From Crocinitomicaceae bacterium (GTDB lineage: Bacteria; Bacteroidota; Bacteroidia; Flavobacteriales_D; Crocinitomicaceae), in contig JAKVAR010000009.1 of NCBI GenBank assembly GCA_022447585.1, positions 617,133 to 681,132 of the forward strand: 64,000 bases of DNA, read 5' to 3'. The notes beneath the pieces were generated by a model. It did no database searches, was not told where the DNA came from, and saw only the letters and a list, made by a program, of their open reading frames with translations. Shown here one piece after another: positions 809-11,630 of this stretch (the stretch's first letter is position 1; each line of letters begins with the position of its first letter). The translations under genes were made by a program, and so were the position numbers.

Positions 809-2251
809 CTAATGTCTCTGAATTTTCCCCGTCTTTGTCATGGGCAAACTATCTACCACCAATAATTTCTGCGGGATTTTAAACGTAGATAAACGCTCCC
901 GGCAAAAAGACAATACCGTTTCAACATCTAACATTTCCAGTTCGTTAACTACAACCTCAGCCTGGATAATTTGTCCCATTAAAGGGTGTGGAACGCCACT
1001 AACACGTGCCATTTCAATATATGGAAGTTCTTCCAAGACATGCTCTACTTCTTCTGCGAATACTTTATTACCTGCGATGTTGATCATTGACTTTTTTCGG
1101 CCTTCTATTTTAATCATTCCTTCATTCGATATTGTTGCAAAATCGGCTGTATAGAAGTAGCCATCAATCAACAAATCATTTCGCATTACAGGTGGATCTA
1201 AATAAGCATCAAACATCCCTGGTCCTTTAATACCCAGCACACCTGTTTCGCCCGATGGAAGGACTTTATTGTTTTTATCAAACACTTGAACATCAAAATC
1301 CGGTAATGCATAACCCACAGCATCTAAATATTCCTCCGAAATATCCGTATTGACAATTGGCAAACCAATTTCAATAATCCCGAAAGCCTGATGTACAATT
1401 TGATTATATCTTTTCTGAAAAGCTTGAGAAATATCCGCACTAATGCCAGCAGAGGTAGAAATTACTTTAGTTAAACTTGGCATCATTGCTTCACTCCTAT
1501 CCGCGGCCAATAGTCTAATTTGCATTGGCGAAGCATATAACATTGTTCCATTATACTGATTTGTAATTTCAAGAACACTTTGTGCCATAAATGACTTAAC
1601 GATTGAAATTGAAGATCCAAAACGAATGTATAAAACAATGGAAACGACAAAATGATACGCCATTGGCAACACCCAGACAACGTTACTCTGCTCATTCAAT
1701 TGCAAGCTTTTATTCGCTGCAGCTGTTCGTTCTAAAACGGATTGATTAGAAATCACAACTCCTTTTGAAACACCTGTTGTTCCGCTTGTATACCTTATAA
1801 AAGCCGGAGCATTTACATGACTCGCAAAAACATGACTACTGTCTATATTAGTATAAGCAAAACGCATTCTACCAATATTTAACGGGATCTCTTTGGATAT
1901 TATTTCTAGCGGTTTAATTCCACTATAATCGTCGAGAATAGCGTGTAATTTTGTTTTATCCAAAATCTCATCAATTTCAGTTTGTTTAAGCTGATGTGAA
2001 ACTGGCATTACAGCAGCGCCACAACCTAAAATAGCAAAAACACTTATGATAAAATTTCGACTATTTCTAGCCATTACACCTACTCCCATTCCTGATTTTA
2101 CACCGAGGGTAATCAACTCTAACTTGAGCGTTTCAACTTCGATTTCTAAGGAATTAAACGTCAGAGTACCATATTCATCATGAATAGCAGGGTTCTCCGG
2201 CCACTTTTGCGCAGCAGATTTAAGTAAATTATATACAAGTAGGTTATTCAT
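809..2251 (-). CDS. AMP-forming acyl/aryl-CoA or acyl-ACP ligase (ANL superfamily)
   Basis: A 480-residue ANL-superfamily adenylating enzyme. It would activate a carboxylic acid as the acyl-AMP and pass it to CoA or, given the neighbour, to a carrier protein. Visible motifs are the A3 P-loop YTSGTTGVSKG (about 154-164), the A8 hinge region YTADFATISNEG followed by GRKKSMINIAGNKV, and the A10 lysine in TKTGKIQR (Lys about 476). The usual A5 motif (Y/F)GxTE reads FGIIE, so the Thr that normally contacts AMP is Ile. It is the last gene of a five-gene minus-strand operon, 20 bp after the FAD oxidoreductase and two genes after a stand-alone acyl carrier protein. The substrate cannot be told from sequence. 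The family call is firm; loading of the neighbouring carrier is inferred. Confidence 0.88.
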   Translation of the reverse strand: MNNLLVYNLLKSAAQKWPENPAIHDEYGTLTFNSLEIEVETLKLELITLGVKSGMGVGVMARNSRNFIISVFAILGCGAAVMPVSHQLKQTEIDEILDKTKLHAILDDYSGIKPLEIISKEIPLNIGRMRFAYTNIDSSHVFASHVNAPAFIRYTSGTTGVSKGVVISNQSVLERTAAANKSLQLNEQSNVVWVLPMAYHFVVSIVLYIRFGSSISIVKSFMAQSVLEITNQYNGTMLYASPMQIRLLAADRSEAMMPSLTKVISTSAGISADISQAFQKRYNQIVHQAFGIIEIGLPIVNTDISEEYLDAVGYALPDFDVQVFDKNNKVLPSGETGVLGIKGPGMFDAYLDPPVMRNDLLIDGYFYTADFATISNEGMIKIEGRKKSMINIAGNKVFAEEVEHVLEELPYIEMARVSGVPHPLMGQIIQAEVVVNELEMLDVETVLSFCRERLSTFKIPQKLLVVDSLPMTKTGKIQRH

Positions 2252-2271
2252 TCGAAAGACTAAGATACCAT

Positions 2272-3504
2272 CTAAAATTGTTCTTTCTGTATCTCACGAA
2301 CCGTTTCTTGTATTTTTTTAACATTGATACTACCTGATGCCAGCTTCCCACTAGCATATCCCGTTTGCAAACAAGTTCCAATAACCCTTGCACTGGCAAT
2401 AGCTTCATCCGTAGCTGAAATACATCTTCCTGCAAAAAACAAATTCTCTATTTGATTGGAAATTAGGTTCTTTGCCGAAATTCCGTAGTGGTCATTCTCT
2501 TGGAGATGCCTTAATTCAACCCTGCGATTCTGGCTCCAAATTTCCATCGGCCAATTACCATATCCAATAAAGTCTTCTGTTTTAGAACAATTCAAGACAT
2601 CATCTCCAGTCAAGATAGACTTTCCAACTGGTCTATCATCAATTCTAACTCCAACATGTGGCGCAATTGACTTCAATTTAGCCGAAGTAAAGCCACCTAC
2701 TTTAGTGATTAAGAAATCTACAATTTCATGAACCGCATTTAAAGCTATTGAGCGAAGTTCTTCTCGATCATCTCCAACTTCCTTAGGCACAGTAACCTTC
2801 AAAGACACCTCACCATTTGTCATTGAACCTGGAACCAAATACAACCTGTTTTGGTTCTCTTTAAGCTCACCATTAATTACAGCTTTTCTAATGGCCGTCA
2901 TAAGCACTAAGCTTAGGTTAGATTCATTTTCAAAATCAACATTTGACAACGTAAAAATTTGTGATGCGGACTGATTTAAAACCGTATTGATAACTTCCAA
3001 ATTCAATAGCTTACTAACTAATGAAACTCCAGAAGTGTCCACCATTGCCTTGCAATCGATTATGAACGGCCCTCCCTTATTTTCACAATGAACAGCTTTT
3101 ATTTTGTTCACTTCATTAGCTACTTGAACTAATTGAGTATTCAAAAAAACAGTTACTCCTTGTTCTGCCAATAAAACTTCACAATGTTCTGCTAAAACAC
3201 GAGGTGAATATGGCAAAAATTTCAACCCTGAGTTATCCCTTAGGGGTTTCGCTTTAGACAAGTGTTGCAATTCATTTGTAAACTCCCTTGCATATGTACC
3301 AACATTATATTCAAAATGATTGTCAAATGAATTCTTGTATATTCCACATATCGTTCCAACTTCTGCATGAACCGCCAGTCCGCCTAGAGATTTTTGCCTT
3401 TCAATCAATGCGACACTCATCCCATCCTTTGCCGCGGCATAAGCAGCAGAAACACCAGATGTTCCTCCACCTACAATTACAATATCAAAGGATTTATTTA
3501 TCAA
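2272..3504 (-). CDS. FAD-dependent oxidoreductase (FAD_oxidored type), TTG start
   Basis: A 410-residue flavoprotein. An N-terminal Rossmann FAD site, IVGGGTSGVSAAYAA (GGGTSG at 12-17), is followed by the acidic end of strand 2 (ALIERQKSLGG). Near the C-terminus lies LFFAGRCISATDEAIASAR, typical of pfam12831-like FAD oxidoreductases. No transmembrane segment is seen. It sits between a carrier protein and an adenylating enzyme, which suggests oxidation or desaturation of a carrier-bound or free acyl intermediate; that is inference. The start is TTG at 3504, only 2 bp after the stop of the carrier gene. No ATG in this frame keeps the full FAD motif, so the TTG start is accepted. It could instead act on an unrelated small molecule. 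Confidence 0.82.
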   Translation of the reverse strand: MINKSFDIVIVGGGTSGVSAAYAAAKDGMSVALIERQKSLGGLAVHAEVGTICGIYKNSFDNHFEYNVGTYAREFTNELQHLSKAKPLRDNSGLKFLPYSPRVLAEHCEVLLAEQGVTVFLNTQLVQVANEVNKIKAVHCENKGGPFIIDCKAMVDTSGVSLVSKLLNLEVINTVLNQSASQIFTLSNVDFENESNLSLVLMTAIRKAVINGELKENQNRLYLVPGSMTNGEVSLKVTVPKEVGDDREELRSIALNAVHEIVDFLITKVGGFTSAKLKSIAPHVGVRIDDRPVGKSILTGDDVLNCSKTEDFIGYGNWPMEIWSQNRRVELRHLQENDHYGISAKNLISNQIENLFFAGRCISATDEAIASARVIGTCLQTGYASGKLASGSINVKKIQETVREIQKEQF

Positions 3505-3506
3505 TA

Positions 3507-3746
3507 CTAATTTATTATATCTTCAACAACAGTAGCGATACTTCTCACAGATCTGAACGTTTCTGGTACCATCAAATGATCGGGGATTAGCTTTCCATAT
3601 TTTCTTTCTATAAATAATACTATTTCAACAATAGAAAAAGAATCAACTCCAACCTCTTTCAAAACAAAGTCAGGTTCCAAAACTATATCCTTAGCTAATA
3701 TATTCGACTTGATAAAGTCGCTCAATGCTTCAATGATTTCAGTCAT
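3507..3746 (-). CDS. stand-alone acyl carrier protein
   Basis: A 79-residue acidic four-helix carrier protein. The 4'-phosphopantetheine attachment motif is GVDSFSIVE, with Ser36 as the modified residue (DSFS in place of the common DSLS/DSLD). Length matches ordinary ACPs. Its ATG overlaps the stop of the ABC permease gene by one base (TAATG), and the next gene starts 2 bp after its own stop, so it is translationally coupled on both sides. This context, rather than a fatty-acid synthase locus, marks it as a dedicated carrier for the ligase and oxidoreductase of this operon. A phosphopantetheinyl transferase is not encoded nearby and would have to be supplied from elsewhere. Confidence 0.9.
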   Translation of the reverse strand: MTEIIEALSDFIKSNILAKDIVLEPDFVLKEVGVDSFSIVEIVLFIERKYGKLIPDHLMVPETFRSVRSIATVVEDIIN

Positions 3747-5029
3747 TAAACTTTACGTTTTAATTTATTAAGGTAGGTTGCTAGCGCTAAACATATTATA
3801 AAAAAGCAAACTAATAATCCTACTTGAGGTAATATTTCCATCAAACCCTCCCCTCTTAAGAAAAGTCCGTAAAACCCATCCAATGACCAATTTAAAGGAG
3901 AAAAATGACTTATCATTCTCATAACATCTGGCATTACATATGTAGGAATCCAGATTCCACCAAGAGCAGAAAGAACCAATATTGATAATGAACCTAATAT
4001 TGCACCTTGTTGCTGTGTAGCAGCCAATGCCCCCACTAACACTCCATATCCCGTGGCGGCCATAGAACTGGCCAATGCAATTATAAATATTCCGATGTAA
4101 CTATTACCAAGCATTAGCTTATCCATGCCAAGAATGGGCATTAAAAACAGTCCAATTGCCAGCATTAATAAGAACTGAATCATACAGACCCCAATATAAA
4201 CAATCACTTTAGCGTTCGTTTGTAATAAATATGATGTTGGGATTGTATGAAACCTGAACACACTTCCTTCTGTTTTTTCGCGCATTATACTTCCAACCAG
4301 CGGAATTACAATAAAGAATAAAGAAAAGATTGTCCATGCAGGGACATTATGTTGCACAGCACCTGGAGCTATTTCTCCAACTAAAGTAGAAGCAAACTCC
4401 TGATCATATAAGATCACTTGTTGCCCGGCGTATTTACTTTTTCCTCCTTTAGGTTCTTCCGGCAGCATTTCCGCAATTTCACCTTTGAATGTTTCAAACA
4501 TGATTTGTGTTTTAACAGCAGAAATAAACTCTCTTAACTGACTTGAAATAGAAATGACAAACGATTTTGAAGCAACAGGATCAATAATCAATTTAATTTC
4601 AGCAGTCTTTGTTCCAGCAACTTCACCCTCTTCTTCCATCCCCATGGATTCAGCTACAATATTCAGCACATTATCCTCAACAGCCTCTGTAGCACCTTTT
4701 GGTATGATAACGCCGACTAAAAACTGTCCTTCTTTAATCGCTGACCTTGCAGATTCAGGCGTTGCTTTTTGTCCATCAACCTCATCAAAAAACTTGACCA
4801 TTTCTGCATTTTTCAGGCCCTCTTCGATTCTATTTCCTAGGGTGTCATTATCGTTGTTAATGAAGACAACAGGCACACCATCTTCATTTATATTTGAAAA
4901 TGCAGCATCTTGAATTAACGTCATTACCGTAATTAACACCATAGGCATAACGAATAAGATCGACAAACCAATCCTATCTCTAATTAAGAGCAAGACCTCT
5001 TTTTTCATTGCAGCTATTAACCTCCTCAT
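3746..5029 (-). CDS. ABC-2 type transporter permease
   Basis: A 427-residue inner-membrane permease. One N-terminal membrane segment (about 18-38) is followed by a large polar, probably extracytoplasmic domain (about 40-230). About five C-terminal membrane segments follow, with the ABC-2 pattern IMREKTEGSVFR before the second segment and GGIWIPTYVMP late. This architecture is that of DrrB/YhhJ-like export permeases. The ATG at 5029 lies 1 bp after the stop of the ATPase gene, and its stop overlaps the ACP start. It should form the exporter with the preceding ATPase, and it probably moves the product of the ACP/ligase/oxidoreductase genes out of the cell; the cargo is inferred only from the operon. 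Confidence 0.88.
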   Translation of the reverse strand: MRRLIAAMKKEVLLLIRDRIGLSILFVMPMVLITVMTLIQDAAFSNINEDGVPVVFINNDNDTLGNRIEEGLKNAEMVKFFDEVDGQKATPESARSAIKEGQFLVGVIIPKGATEAVEDNVLNIVAESMGMEEEGEVAGTKTAEIKLIIDPVASKSFVISISSQLREFISAVKTQIMFETFKGEIAEMLPEEPKGGKSKYAGQQVILYDQEFASTLVGEIAPGAVQHNVPAWTIFSLFFIVIPLVGSIMREKTEGSVFRFHTIPTSYLLQTNAKVIVYIGVCMIQFLLMLAIGLFLMPILGMDKLMLGNSYIGIFIIALASSMAATGYGVLVGALAATQQQGAILGSLSILVLSALGGIWIPTYVMPDVMRMISHFSPLNWSLDGFYGLFLRGEGLMEILPQVGLLVCFFIICLALATYLNKLKRKV

Positions 5030-5030
5030 C

Positions 5031-5783
5031 CTAATCTCTCATTTTAGTTTTGGTTAACTTCAAAAAAACATCTTCTAAATCTTTGCAACCTGCATGAGAT
5101 TCGACCAATGCATTAGGCTCACCTCTCGCAATGATTTCTCCTGCGTCAATAATAGCTAGATCTGAGCAAAACTTCTCAGCCTCTTCTAAGTGATGTGACG
5201 TATAAATAATAGTCATTCCAGAATCGTTCAAATCTTTTAAGTGCGACATGATAGCAGTACGTGATTGGACGTCTACCCCAACCGTTGGCTCATCCAAAAA
5301 CAATAACTCAGGTTTATGAAGAATTCCCGCGATCAAGTTAATTCGACGCTTCATTCCTCCAGAATAGGTCTCAACACGTTTATTTGCACTAACAGCCATT
5401 TGAAGTTTCTCCAACCAATGATCAATTTCTTGTTTTAATTGATATTTAGGGACTCCATACATAGCGCCATAAAACTCAAGGTTTTCTCTTCCGGTTAAAG
5501 TCGGGTAAAGTGCAATGTCTTGTGGTACTACACCGATCTGATGCTTAACCTTATCGAGGTCAGTACTTAAATCGTAACCATTTACTTTTATGCATCCGGA
5601 AGTTGGATTAAACAACCCACAGAGCATAGAAATGGTTGTAGTTTTTCCCGCACCATTTGGTCCAAGCAGACCAAAAGTTTCATTTTTAGTAATAGAAAAA
5701 GATAAATTATTCACAGCTGGAGAAACCCTTCCTGCGAATGATTTAGTAATTAAATCAACTTCTATAATTTTAGTTTTACTCAT
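5031..5783 (-). CDS. ABC transporter ATP-binding protein
   Basis: A 250-residue ABC ATPase with Walker A GPNGAGKTT (about 41-49), a Q-loop in GVVPQDIALYPTLTG, signature YSGGMKRR, Walker B LLFLDEPT and the switch His in YTSHHLEEAE. Overall it resembles DrrA/CcmA-type exporter ATPases. The start is set at ATG 5783, because the codon one upstream is TTG. The gene opens the five-gene operon and ends 1 bp before the permease ATG. A perfect -7 element, TAACTTTG, lies 18-25 bp upstream (5801-5808), so the operon appears to have its own promoter, distinct from the BNR/M61 genes upstream. Confidence 0.93.
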   Translation of the reverse strand: MSKTKIIEVDLITKSFAGRVSPAVNNLSFSITKNETFGLLGPNGAGKTTTISMLCGLFNPTSGCIKVNGYDLSTDLDKVKHQIGVVPQDIALYPTLTGRENLEFYGAMYGVPKYQLKQEIDHWLEKLQMAVSANKRVETYSGGMKRRINLIAGILHKPELLFLDEPTVGVDVQSRTAIMSHLKDLNDSGMTIIYTSHHLEEAEKFCSDLAIIDAGEIIARGEPNALVESHAGCKDLEDVFLKLTKTKMRD

Positions 5784-5800
5784 CAATAATTTTAGTGGTC

Positions 5801-5808
5801 CAAAGTTA
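5801..5808 (-). promoter_or_regulatory. -7 element for the ABC/ACP/ligase operon
   Basis: On the minus strand this reads TAACTTTG, a full match to the Bacteroidota -7 consensus TAnnTTTG, 17 bp before the ATPase ATG. No TTG is found at the preferred 17-23 bp upstream (the nearest is at 26 bp), so the -33 part is weak. Confidence 0.55.
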
Positions 5809-5822
5809 GTATAAATTTGAAT

Positions 5823-7118
5823 TTACTTTTTATTCAATAAAGCTTCTTCAATTAGCGAAATCCATAAAGTAAATTTTCCATCATCCATGCGAGGCCAAAT
5901 TGGACGAATGATTCCATCTACTGCATCGATGTTTAAGTAATCCCCAAAGAATAAGTTTGGATTAGGAGTAAATGGAGATTGAGAAATACGCGTATCTACA
6001 AAAGTCTCCCCACCATCTCTTGATGCAGTAATGTAGACGTCTGTTTGCGTATCATTATAATTTCTTCGATCATAGTAAACGAAATATAAATACCCTGTAC
6101 TTTGATCTACACTAATCCATGTGAAGAATTGGTGCTTACCTTCACCATCTTGATTCACCTTAATTCTATCACTCCAAGTTTCTCCTCCATCAGTTGATTT
6201 CATCAACCAAGAGTCAGTATCATTTTCACCACTTTTTTGGTCGCACCAATTCAAATAAAGCGTTCCTCTATTGGGACCATTACTTAAATCACACTTCAAA
6301 ATTGGTAAACCATTAGCACGATAAATCCCTGGAATAGACAAATCCCAGCCGCCATATTGCTGTTGAATCTGAACCTCTTCTTCTAACCAAGTTTCACCTC
6401 CATCCAATGACTTTTGAAACACCAATCCCTTTGGACCTGTCCAAGTAACATATATTTCACCATTTACGCCCACAGCAGGCACAGCACCTTCCACCGTATT
6501 ATCTCCATCAAGGCAATCACCTCCAAATTTTGAAATACGGAGAGGATCGGACCATGTTTGTCCTTGGTCAGCCGATTTTGAAAATACGATTATCGATGTA
6601 TCCATTGGATCTTTCGAATCATAAGCATCAAATTGCGTCCATGTCATGTAAATTTCATTATTAGCTTCATTTAAAACTGTCCAATGCTTGTCTTGAACCT
6701 TACTTCCATTAGGCTTTGGAAAGGTTCCCTCATTAAATTTCTTACATACTTTTGGAGTAGATTGACACACGATTCTGTCCAGGTGCGTTGCTTCTAAATA
6801 ATTCGATAAATGAAAATAATACAAACGGCTATTATTATCGAACATCAATACTGGGTCTCCATACACTCCATATTTACTATACAACGTTTTACTTTTCCAT
6901 TTTTTACCTCCATTGGTAGAATAATAAAAGTCTGACAACACAGATCCCGCTGCCATATGCTTTGGATTATTCGGATCAATAGCTATTGATGGCTCTATCT
7001 GTGAGTATGGATAAATTGCATCTTTCGGTAAAGGAAGTTGAACTGACTCAAAATATGATTGTCCTAAAGCACAAAACACAGCACAAAATAGCACTCCTGA
7101 TAATGTTAAATTTTTCAT
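5823..7118 (-). CDS. secreted BNR/Asp-box repeat protein (sialidase-like fold)
   Basis: A 431-residue exported beta-propeller protein. The ATG at 7118 overlaps the M61 peptidase stop as ATGA and directly begins a signal peptide (MKNLTLSGVLFCAVFCALGQ). The in-frame ATG five codons upstream would weaken it. At least five Asp-box motifs are visible: STNGGKKW, SADQGQTW, SLDGGETW, STDGGETW and SRDGGETF. Such repeats mark sialidase-like propellers, but I cannot identify the arginine triad of a true sialidase, so enzymatic activity is uncertain. Many Bacteroidota proteins of this kind are annotated as exo-alpha-sialidase on the fold alone. It is probably periplasmic or surface-exposed and co-translated with the M61 peptidase. 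Confidence 0.82.
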   Translation of the reverse strand: MKNLTLSGVLFCAVFCALGQSYFESVQLPLPKDAIYPYSQIEPSIAIDPNNPKHMAAGSVLSDFYYSTNGGKKWKSKTLYSKYGVYGDPVLMFDNNSRLYYFHLSNYLEATHLDRIVCQSTPKVCKKFNEGTFPKPNGSKVQDKHWTVLNEANNEIYMTWTQFDAYDSKDPMDTSIIVFSKSADQGQTWSDPLRISKFGGDCLDGDNTVEGAVPAVGVNGEIYVTWTGPKGLVFQKSLDGGETWLEEEVQIQQQYGGWDLSIPGIYRANGLPILKCDLSNGPNRGTLYLNWCDQKSGENDTDSWLMKSTDGGETWSDRIKVNQDGEGKHQFFTWISVDQSTGYLYFVYYDRRNYNDTQTDVYITASRDGGETFVDTRISQSPFTPNPNLFFGDYLNIDAVDGIIRPIWPRMDDGKFTLWISLIEEALLNKK

Positions 7119-8902
7119 TCTTGCCTTAACCAATAGTTGAATAATTTCTCATTGCCTTTATTCGTATTAATTTCAAACTTGAATTTAGGTTGCTCATATG
7201 CAGTAACAATAATCTCAGTAGAGTATAATTGATCTCCTCGAGCAAAAAGTACTTCAATTGACTCATCTACTTGAACATTATTAAAATATCCTTCCAATGA
7301 TTTTTGATTCACTCTTAAACCATTACAACCTATAATTTCATCATTAACGCTAATACCGGCATCTTCAGCAGATGAATTACTTCTAACCCCTCTCACAATC
7401 GTTTTTCCACCTACTGTCTTAAGAGTAAGTCCAACACTTGCCTTTGATTCGCCAATGTAGTTTACGTTCAATCCTAAAGGAGAAAACACCTTATTGTACT
7501 CTGGAATCTCGGTTCCATCTATGTATTTATTATAAAAATCATCCATATTTTCACCCAAGAAATCTTCTAATTCCTTCTTGAACTCTTCTTCTGAAAAACC
7601 TCTATTCTTCTTTTCGTAATACTCCGCATAGATGTGCTGCATAAATGCATCCAACCCTTTCTTTCCATTATACTTGCGAATCATCTTTGCATCTAACATC
7701 ATTGCTATTACAGAACCTCTTGAATAATATGACATAGTTGTATTACGACTATTTTCATTTGGTCTATATGCTTTAATCCAGGCATCAAAACTTGCATGAG
7801 AGACAGGTTGAACTCGAGTTCCTGTTGCACCTTCGACATAATTCAAACTACTAAACATACTATTCAATAAATCCTTCTGCGTATAGTAACCTGCACGAAG
7901 TAAAATCATTTTTTCATAGTATGAGGTAAACCCTTCCATTACCCATAAAAGTGATGTATAATTTTCTTCATCATAGTTAAACGGACCTAATTCTACTGGA
8001 CGAATGCGTTTAACATTCCATAAATGAAAGTACTCATGAGCTACTAACTTTAAGAATCCAAGATAATCCTTTCCTTCGTATGTCCAACGGTTAACTGAAA
8101 GTACCGTTGAGTTTGAATGCTCCAATCCTCCCTGCGCGTCTACTACATTATGGATAATAAAGGTATATTCTTTATTTGGATTTTCGCCAAAGATATTCGT
8201 TGCTGATTCCACAACCTTCGCCATATCTCTCTTGAGGTTATCAATATTATAGTTCCCTCTGCCATACAAAGCCACATCATGACGAACACCTGCTGCTTCA
8301 AAAGAAAACGAACGTTGATTTCCAATTTCAATTGGGCAATCTACTAAATGATCATAATTCATATAATCAAAAACCGTTGAACCATCTTTCAATACCCCCT
8401 CAGAAGACTCTTTAAGCGCAGTAGTAATAACTTTAAAAGATTCATGAGGAAAAACCTCTACTTGCCCCTTCTTATCTTTGTATCCTTCAGCGTACATGAA
8501 AACACCAGTTCCAGATACAAATCCGTGTGTTAAATCAAGAAAACTAGTTCTTACGGACAATTCGAAAGCATATACTTCATATTTAACCGTTACTTTTTGA
8601 TCTTTTCCTTTTGAAACTCTCCACGTATTCTTGTTTAATTTCTTAACCGAAAGCTCTTTCCCTTTACTGTCAAATGCCTTCACTAAGTTCACATTCTTAG
8701 CGAATTCTCTTGCTAAATATGAACCTGGAGCCCATATCGGCATCTTAACATTCACCTCGCTTTCTTTAAAATCAATCAATTCCATTTCTACTTGGTAATA
8801 GTGATTTTGTGGTTTCGGCATTCTCAAGTTATATTTTACACTTTGTGCGTAAGAGAATGAAACTAGCATTGAAACCACTGCTAAGATTGAATATTTAAGC
8901 AT
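7115..8902 (-). CDS. M61 family metallopeptidase with PDZ domain, secreted
   Basis: A 595-residue peptidase of the glycyl-aminopeptidase family M61. A signal peptide (about 1-19, ending SYAQ) precedes the N-terminal beta domain. The zinc motif is HEYFH (His289, Glu290, His293) followed by LWNVKRIRP, the M61 hallmark, and a PDZ-like domain lies at about 480-570. It should act outside the cytoplasm on peptides. The gene is first in a two-gene operon, and its stop overlaps the BNR gene start as ATGA. A consensus -7 box (TATCTTTG) lies 18 bp upstream. A second M61 gene is found at the right edge of the window. Confidence 0.93.
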   Translation of the reverse strand: MLKYSILAVVSMLVSFSYAQSVKYNLRMPKPQNHYYQVEMELIDFKESEVNVKMPIWAPGSYLAREFAKNVNLVKAFDSKGKELSVKKLNKNTWRVSKGKDQKVTVKYEVYAFELSVRTSFLDLTHGFVSGTGVFMYAEGYKDKKGQVEVFPHESFKVITTALKESSEGVLKDGSTVFDYMNYDHLVDCPIEIGNQRSFSFEAAGVRHDVALYGRGNYNIDNLKRDMAKVVESATNIFGENPNKEYTFIIHNVVDAQGGLEHSNSTVLSVNRWTYEGKDYLGFLKLVAHEYFHLWNVKRIRPVELGPFNYDEENYTSLLWVMEGFTSYYEKMILLRAGYYTQKDLLNSMFSSLNYVEGATGTRVQPVSHASFDAWIKAYRPNENSRNTTMSYYSRGSVIAMMLDAKMIRKYNGKKGLDAFMQHIYAEYYEKKNRGFSEEEFKKELEDFLGENMDDFYNKYIDGTEIPEYNKVFSPLGLNVNYIGESKASVGLTLKTVGGKTIVRGVRSNSSAEDAGISVNDEIIGCNGLRVNQKSLEGYFNNVQVDESIEVLFARGDQLYSTEIIVTAYEQPKFKFEINTNKGNEKLFNYWLRQE

Positions 8903-11152: not shown

Positions 11153-11225
11153 GATTTGGTAGCTCAGTTGGTAGAGCAATACACTTTTAATGTATGGGTC
11201 CTGGGTTCGAGCCCCAGCCAGATCA
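11153..11225 (+). tRNA. tRNA-Lys (UUU), copy 1
   Basis: A 73-nt cloverleaf. The 7-bp acceptor stem GATTTGG/CCAGATC has one G-U pair. The D-arm contains AGCTCAGTTGGTAGAGC. The anticodon arm ATACA-CTTTTAA-TGTAT has anticodon TTT, and the T-arm CTGGG-TTCGAGC-CCCAG is regular. The discriminator base is A and no CCA is encoded. A TTG-N19-TATATTTG promoter lies upstream and an intrinsic terminator starts 5 bp after the 3' end. Confidence 0.97.
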
Positions 11226-11230
11226 CGAAA

Positions 11231-11552: not shown

Positions 11553-11625
11553 GATTTGGTAGCTCAGTTGGTAGAGCAATACACTTTTAATGTATGGGTC
11601 CTGGGTTCGAGCCCCAGCCAGATCA
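11553..11625 (+). tRNA. tRNA-Lys (UUU), copy 2
   Basis: Identical in all 73 nt to the copy at 11153-11225, with anticodon TTT and no encoded CCA. It begins exactly 400 bp after the first copy, and has its own promoter and a copied terminator. Confidence 0.97.
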
Positions 11626-11630
11626 CGAAA

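Follow-up and report, generated by a model that had tools for sequence, protein, structure and literature searches.

Lipoinitiation of lipopeptides in the daptomycin group is carried out by a fatty acyl-AMP ligase (FAAL), a free acyl carrier protein (ACP) and a starter condensation domain (PMC9113097). Thiotemplated pyrrole systems (PltE/PltL, Bmp1-Bmp3 and ChmG-J) use a ligase, a free carrier and a flavoenzyme, as described in PMC10849742, and mycobacterial acyltrehalose and sulfolipid formation follows a FadD/PapA/Stf0 logic of AMP ligase, acyltransferase, sulfotransferase and exporter (PMC4183827). Here, a 64,000-nt stretch from a Crocinitomicaceae bacterium (GCA_022447585.1, contig JAKVAR010000009.1, positions 617,133 to 681,132 of the forward strand), hereafter called the window, was analysed. 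It carries a five-gene operon encoding an ABC-2 type ATPase (ATP), an ABC-2 type permease (PERM), a stand-alone ACP, a FAD_oxidored-family flavoprotein (FAD) and an AMP-forming acid ligase (LIG). A sixth gene of the set, encoding a condensation-type acyltransferase (COND), lies outside the window. We consider the chances about even that the five window genes are part of a six-protein pathway of discrete enzymes for acyl transfer and export.

The locus resembles FAAL-ACP-condensation lipoinitiation in having a discrete acid-AMP ligase, a free ACP that the ligase is predicted to load, and a condensation enzyme with an HHxxxDG motif (complete in 8 of 16 copies) that would couple the acyl group. 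It differs in that COND is a separate protein and that the flavoprotein and the ABC-2 pair are added. As for an NRPS (nonribosomal peptide synthetase) elongation module, no second ligase-like open reading frame (ORF) was present among the ORFs of the cluster neighbourhoods. With the pyrrole systems the locus shares a ligase, a stand-alone carrier and a flavoenzyme, but the flavoenzyme belongs to another family, LIG does not look like an amino-acid adenylation (A) domain, and COND is present. The carrier profile ranks 6cxt and 4h2s first, with fatty-acid-type ACPs ahead of PltL. The likeness to the mycobacterial logic (AMP ligase, acyltransferase, export and, in the window's genus, a sulfotransferase) is an analogy only: a free ACP and a FAD_oxidored enzyme occur here, an ABC-2 pair takes the place of MmpL, and no polyketide synthase (PKS) gene was noticed among the scanned cluster neighbours. 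In a literature search limited to the open PMC library, no title among those listed described this gene set.

Operon structure and the condensation-type acyltransferase

The compact layout proposed in the preliminary description was recovered in full by ORF calling, with all five genes on the minus strand. In the direction of transcription, they are ATP (5031..5786, 251 aa, TTG start, next ATG at 5783), PERM (3746..5029, 427 aa), ACP (3507..3746, 79 aa), FAD (2272..3504, 410 aa, TTG start) and LIG (809..2251, 480 aa). As had been proposed, 1 bp separates ATP from PERM, PERM and ACP overlap by 1 bp (TAATG), and the last two gaps measure 2 bp and 20 bp. Pfam assigned ATP to PF00005 ABC_tran (9.5e-35), PERM to PF12698 ABC2_membrane_3 (3.4e-30), ACP to PF00550 PP-binding (2.2e-4; 21.9 bits against a cut-off of 20.8) and LIG to PF00501 AMP-binding (4.7e-51) and PF13193 AMP-binding_C (2.9e-12). 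Six hydrophobic segments were found in PERM by a simple hydropathy scan. Ser36, the serine within VGVDSFS, is the phosphopantetheine site of the ACP; all 8 of the 8 ACPs aligned have it. Among the matches listed, none of the five proteins reached a curated NCBIfam cut-off, so none has a ready name; the best match of ATP, TIGR01188 drrA, scored 264.8 bits, below the cut-off of 312.45.

The flavoprotein belongs to PF12831 FAD_oxidored (1.1e-67; 229.6 bits against a cut-off of 27; profile positions 1-403 of 416), and no acyl-CoA-dehydrogenase family was among its Pfam matches, which agrees with the earlier view that it is not of that type. It keeps an N-terminal GxGxxG and a conserved C-terminal stretch. 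No close solved relative was found, with PDB matches mostly to the FAD-binding N-terminus, and a single-sequence AlphaFold2 model, with a mean pLDDT (predicted local distance difference test score) of 33, was not used.

The operon had been described as lacking an NRPS module. In the sense of a missing condensing enzyme, this was not supported for the wider set: a stand-alone NRPS-condensation-type acyltransferase gene, COND, lies between ACP and FAD in five genomes. In the window's genome (G000; other G numbers denote comparison genomes and L numbers extracted loci), COND occupies G000:C191:609001-610260, which ends 6.9 kb short of the window, and converges with a sulfotransferase gene. G168, G173 and G175 also have it elsewhere than between ACP and FAD, in G173 about 1.4 kb from LIG. 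The proteins are about 415-450 aa long (412 in G124, cut by the contig end). At E<=0.01, PF00668 Condensation matched 10 of 13 COND and WS_DGAT_C matched 3 of 13, and the nearest solved relatives by profile were NRPS condensation domains (8e-7 and weaker). The condensation superfamily also includes the PapA proteins. Within HHxxxDG, 16 of 16 COND (13 of 13 in a smaller set) retain the Asp and the second His, and the copy of the window's genome reads HHLLMDG. Since COND falls below the Pfam cut-off and outside the operon in this genome, rules built on NRPS/PKS megasynthases may pass over the cluster. A separate weak match to the COND profile (7.5e-4) was seen at G000:C76:1230-1388 (L084) in a 1105-aa open frame, possibly an NRPS fragment.

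Distribution and inheritance of the gene set

Of 200 family genomes searched, 11 have a flavoprotein relative at E<1e-60, counting that of the window. The best match below these was 5e-12, and most others listed were short and covered the FAD-binding N-terminus. An order sample of 299 genomes added one flavoprotein genome, G593, from a second family (8e-125), and in a phylum sample of 395 genomes ten genomes besides the window's had matches of 7e-41 to 2e-62 only. No LIG, ACP, PERM or COND was detected by BLAST of the ORFs near these ten distant flavoproteins, at most seven of the neighbourhoods being informative (in L065, L066 and L069 the flavoprotein itself was lost in ORF selection, and L072 spans only 4 kb). 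In a plasmid collection, the flavoprotein matched 49 records (24-28% identity in the 10 matches listed), LIG matched 8 (26-28%) and COND none; five plasmid neighbourhoods inspected had catabolic or fatty-acid contexts, none with such a cluster. A pattern scan of a contig collection, in which single-protein patterns reach close relatives only, gave one weak locus (33% over residues 3-52). Phyla beyond the window's own were covered solely by these two collections.

The genes of the set occur together. LIG was present in 12 of 12 flavoprotein genomes versus 0 of 12 comparison genomes (E<=1e-30), with only 97 residues left at a contig end in G124. COND and FAD were found together in 10 of the 200 family genomes, FAD alone in 1, COND alone in 5 and neither in 184 (Fisher p 1.4e-12, kinship ignored; the two 200-genome samples behind these counts were taken as identical, and their listed handles agree). 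The genome with FAD and no COND is G152 (75% complete), and those with COND and no FAD are G075, G165, G131, G141 and G179 (the last 72% complete). Among the 395 genomes of the phylum sample, a profile search for COND at E<=1e-15 recovered 1, the window's own.

Gene order is conserved as well. The order ATP-PERM-ACP-COND-FAD-LIG is unbroken in G063, G017, G043 and, in the second family, G593, where the ACP was absent from the ORF list and was read by hand in the PERM-COND gap. The same order occurs in G113, whose contig ends inside LIG, and a contig of G124 carries COND, FAD and the partial LIG. G168 has ATP-PERM-ACP-FAD-LIG with COND 3.7 kb away, and in G033 a single contig holds ATP-PERM-ACP-COND and, about 34 kb away, FAD-LIG. 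The order, for which the preliminary description had asked whether it is particular to this strain, is thus kept across genera and two families. Because further genera and a second family also have the gene set, its assembly is more than chance.

Old vertical descent with many losses fits better than recent transfer, judged by the resident BNR-repeat gene directly upstream of ATP (5823..7133, minus strand). Identities to the window's LIG were 69% (G168), 68% (G173), 65% (G175), 59% (G017), 59% (G063), 56% (G043) and 54% (G152), and those to the window's BNR protein, in the same order, were 72, 73, 66, 58, 59, 55 and 64%, so that LIG tracks the BNR gene within 5 points except in G152.

Proposed pathway and alternative explanations

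Hints on the substrate come from the ligase and the carrier. The LIG motif LPMTKTGKIQR holds the A10 lysine. In the A4 region, YHF is invariant in 9 of 9 aligned ligases, and the Phe that follows the His stands where amino-acid A domains carry Asp; a non-amino acid is therefore the more likely substrate. Proline-specific adenylation was also looked at, and in 9 of 9 ligases the same Phe occupied the Asp position expected of amino-acid enzymes. The LIG profile gave malonyl-CoA synthetase 180 bits; the LgrA A domains scored 94 and 107 when taken singly, while in sum the two-domain LgrA chain headed the list with 205 bits. LIG resembles acyl-CoA-synthetase-type ligases more than amino-acid A domains. 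Meanwhile, the best PDB matches of the ACP profile were 6cxt_A (5.8e-12) and the aminoacyl carrier 4h2s (1.8e-9), and fatty-acid-type ACPs (8jfg and others, about 1e-6) came ahead of PltL (2n5h, 5.9e-6). PMC10849742 gives 6CXT as the crystal structure of Bmp3 and mentions a Bmp1-Bmp3 complex; the 77-residue chain of 6cxt is probably the Bmp1 carrier. Judged from these comparisons, the hints from LIG and ACP pull apart.

From gene content, order, co-occurrence and motifs, we infer the following reaction steps, substrates and direction of transport. LIG would adenylate a carboxylic acid, probably hydrophobic or aryl rather than an alpha-amino acid, and attach it to the ACP through the phosphopantetheine. 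The flavoprotein may then alter the redox state of the ACP-bound acyl group, presumably by oxidation, and COND would pass the acyl group on to an acceptor, either an amine or an alcohol. Export of the product from the cytoplasm would fall to the ABC-2 pair, and in the window's genus a sulfotransferase encoded beside COND may sulfate the product. If so, this would be a small, conserved and so far uncharacterised metabolite or lipid pathway. Its discrete proteins would allow loading, oxidation, condensation and export each to be examined singly, and could reveal if thioesters on a carrier are within the reach of FAD_oxidored enzymes. In its most specific form, this proposal would describe an all-discrete-enzyme assembly system of one Bacteroidota order, with a FAD_oxidored enzyme acting on a carrier-bound substrate and a product sulfated in the window's genus, so that the exported, sulfated compound, an acyl conjugate or an envelope lipid, would form a class of its own; we hold this combination to be improbable.

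The ABC pair had been described as the operon's own exporter, which is supported only in part. It adjoins biosynthetic genes in 7 of the 12 flavoprotein genomes, and in the rest it is separate, represented by a paralogue only or obscured by contig ends. Specifically, an eighth genome, G033, has the exporter with ACP and COND, apart from FAD and LIG, and its position in G124 and G152 is obscured by contig ends. At the place of the ABC genes of G000 and G168, G173 and G175 show a one-base overlap between the end of BNR and the start of ACP. A permease paralogue of 30-37% identity occurs in 13 of 17 searched genomes. Conversely, four further genomes of the genus (G075, G165, G131 and G141) have ATP-PERM without FAD and LIG. 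The exporter and the biosynthetic genes are linked but separable, as G173 and G175 lack a close copy and these four genomes keep the exporter without FAD and LIG. In G131, the permease is split into two ORFs (L208:14203-15479), perhaps by a frameshift or sequencing error.

The sulfotransferase gene (SULF, Sulfotransfer_3) is convergent with COND and divergent from a DUF5686 gene in G000, G168 and G175. In G168, these genes form one contiguous row, M61-BNR-ATP-PERM-ACP-FAD-LIG-DUF5686-SULF-COND. The SULF-DUF5686 pair also occurs in G131, G141 and G593, in the last on another contig than the cluster. G075, G165, G131 and G141 combine ATP-PERM with a pair of SULF and a long-branch form of COND, here COND', and their permeases are 60-67% identical in three cases. 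No ACP was seen in these stretches of the four genomes. COND' has NH for HH and DN for DG, the other 12 of 16 keeping HH, and the COND' sequences group together at the end of a long branch (1.89), as a single clade with support 100/100. The permeases of these genomes, that of G131 having been left out of the tree, nest among those of the genus. A link between the motif change and ligase loss is only suggestive, as it rests on one event, and COND' could equally be a separate paralogue. Between permease and COND', where the window has ACP-FAD-LIG, G075 (G075:C3, L132:9520-11511) and G165 (L135:3732-5729) encode a protein of 663-665 aa whose C-terminus is TPR-like and in which ten or eleven segments are hydrophobic.

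Several of these observations weigh against a single six-protein pathway. G173 (92% complete) and G175 (88%) keep ACP-FAD-LIG and COND with only a 33-34% permease paralogue. In the window's genus, COND stands outside the operon, beside SULF in 3 of the 4 FAD genomes, and the long-branch COND' stands beside SULF in four genomes without LIG or FAD, so COND could belong to another pathway there. Among the 200 family genomes, 28 have a SULF relative, and 25 of these 28 lack FAD. The COND of the window's genome scores 24.6 bits against the PF00668 cut-off of 30.6 (of two others, that of L038 is also below with 19.5 and that of L042 above with 46.5), and the 16 copies include only the 8 with full HHxxxDG, four HH copies having DE, DA, DA and DN for DG. 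The pairwise identities of LIG, FAD, COND, PERM and ACP run parallel (r 0.82-0.98, 7-11 genomes), which counts for a single pathway but mostly reflects shared descent. Additionally, FAD and ACP each belong to wide superfamilies, and the action of FAD on a carrier-bound substrate is a proposal drawn from the sequences; we know of no FAD_oxidored-family enzyme that works on such a substrate.

An alternative is the modification of an envelope lipid or pigment, which we regard as less likely but a serious contender. LIG and ACP would activate a fatty acid, FAD would desaturate it, COND would be a PapA- or WS/DGAT-like O-acyltransferase esterifying a lipid or carotenoid, and the ABC-2 pair would flip the product, which sulfation would make sulfolipid-like in the window's genus. 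The WS_DGAT_C matches in 3 of 13 COND point in this direction, as do the seven genomes of the genus where SULF converges with COND or COND' and the mycobacterial combination of ligase, PapA acyltransferase, sulfotransferase and exporter (PMC4183827). A carotenoid desaturase gene, crtD, follows LIG by 1 bp in G063 and G017, and G152 has a homologue with 79% identity in the vicinity of LIG, the two being separated by a Caroten_synth gene. These loci are L038:8989-10458, L039:11698-13167 and L044:3550-5232; NCBIfam was run on L038, to which the others are 95% and 79% identical. However, the carotenoid link was seen only in three genomes of one genus (g18) and was set aside as the principal explanation, being retained within the lipid alternative. 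Against lipid modification, at E<=1e-10 SULF is missing in G173 of the window's genus and, among the 8 cluster genomes of other genera, in 7; most SULF genomes lack FAD as noted above, and the carrier is nearest to Bmp- and aminoacyl-type carriers, with fatty-acid-type ACPs close behind.

That carrier ranking, with 6cxt_A and 4h2s at its head and PltL within it, would instead suit a thiotemplated aminoacyl pathway of the PltL/Bmp1 kind, with LIG loading an amino or imino acid that FAD would aromatise or dehydrogenate and COND would couple. An adenylating enzyme, a free ACP and flavoenzymes also make up the ChmJ/ChmI/ChmGH logic (PMC10849742). We find this pathway improbable, as the flavoprotein is not of the acyl-CoA-dehydrogenase type, fatty-acid-type ACPs outscore PltL, and LIG carries Phe at the presumed Asp position and by profile scores malonyl-CoA synthetase above either single LgrA A domain, though below the LgrA chain in sum. 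A loose neighbourhood, in which an ordinary acyl-CoA ligase and a housekeeping oxidoreductase lie near an unrelated multidrug-type ABC-2 pump and share no product, would account for the exporter and the ACP-FAD-LIG block each being found without the other. It is very unlikely in view of the tight co-occurrence of LIG and of COND with FAD, the order conserved in two families and the short junctions.

Candidate promoter motif and flanking genes

The preliminary description had placed the operon behind a single -7 box. A match to TAnnTTTG, which we take to be a -7-type box of the Bacteroidota kind, is present at that place on the minus strand (TAACTTTG, 5801..5808, pattern match), with 14 bases between it and the TTG of the ATPase gene. 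It is weak evidence alone, because it is one of four TAnnTTTG matches on that strand within the first 9 kb of the window.

Upstream of the BNR gene, and overlapping it, lies a gene for an M61-family peptidase (7115..8902, minus strand; PF05299, 1.4e-44). This M61-BNR pair adjoins the cluster in G000, G168, G173 and G175. It was rejected as a part of the operon and is regarded as resident, since it is also seen in G018 and G126, both without the flavoprotein. The BNR gene was found in 30 of 40 searched genomes, 22 of 28 without and 8 of 12 with the flavoprotein.

On the other side, three genes (for a DUF2130 protein and two proteins without a Pfam match) lie between LIG and the DUF5686 gene in the window's genome (L034:7420-10819) and are missing in G168. 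Two tRNA-Lys (ttt) genes lie 400 bases apart at window positions 11153-11226 and 11553-11626, and the near-identical ORFs opposite them are spurious.

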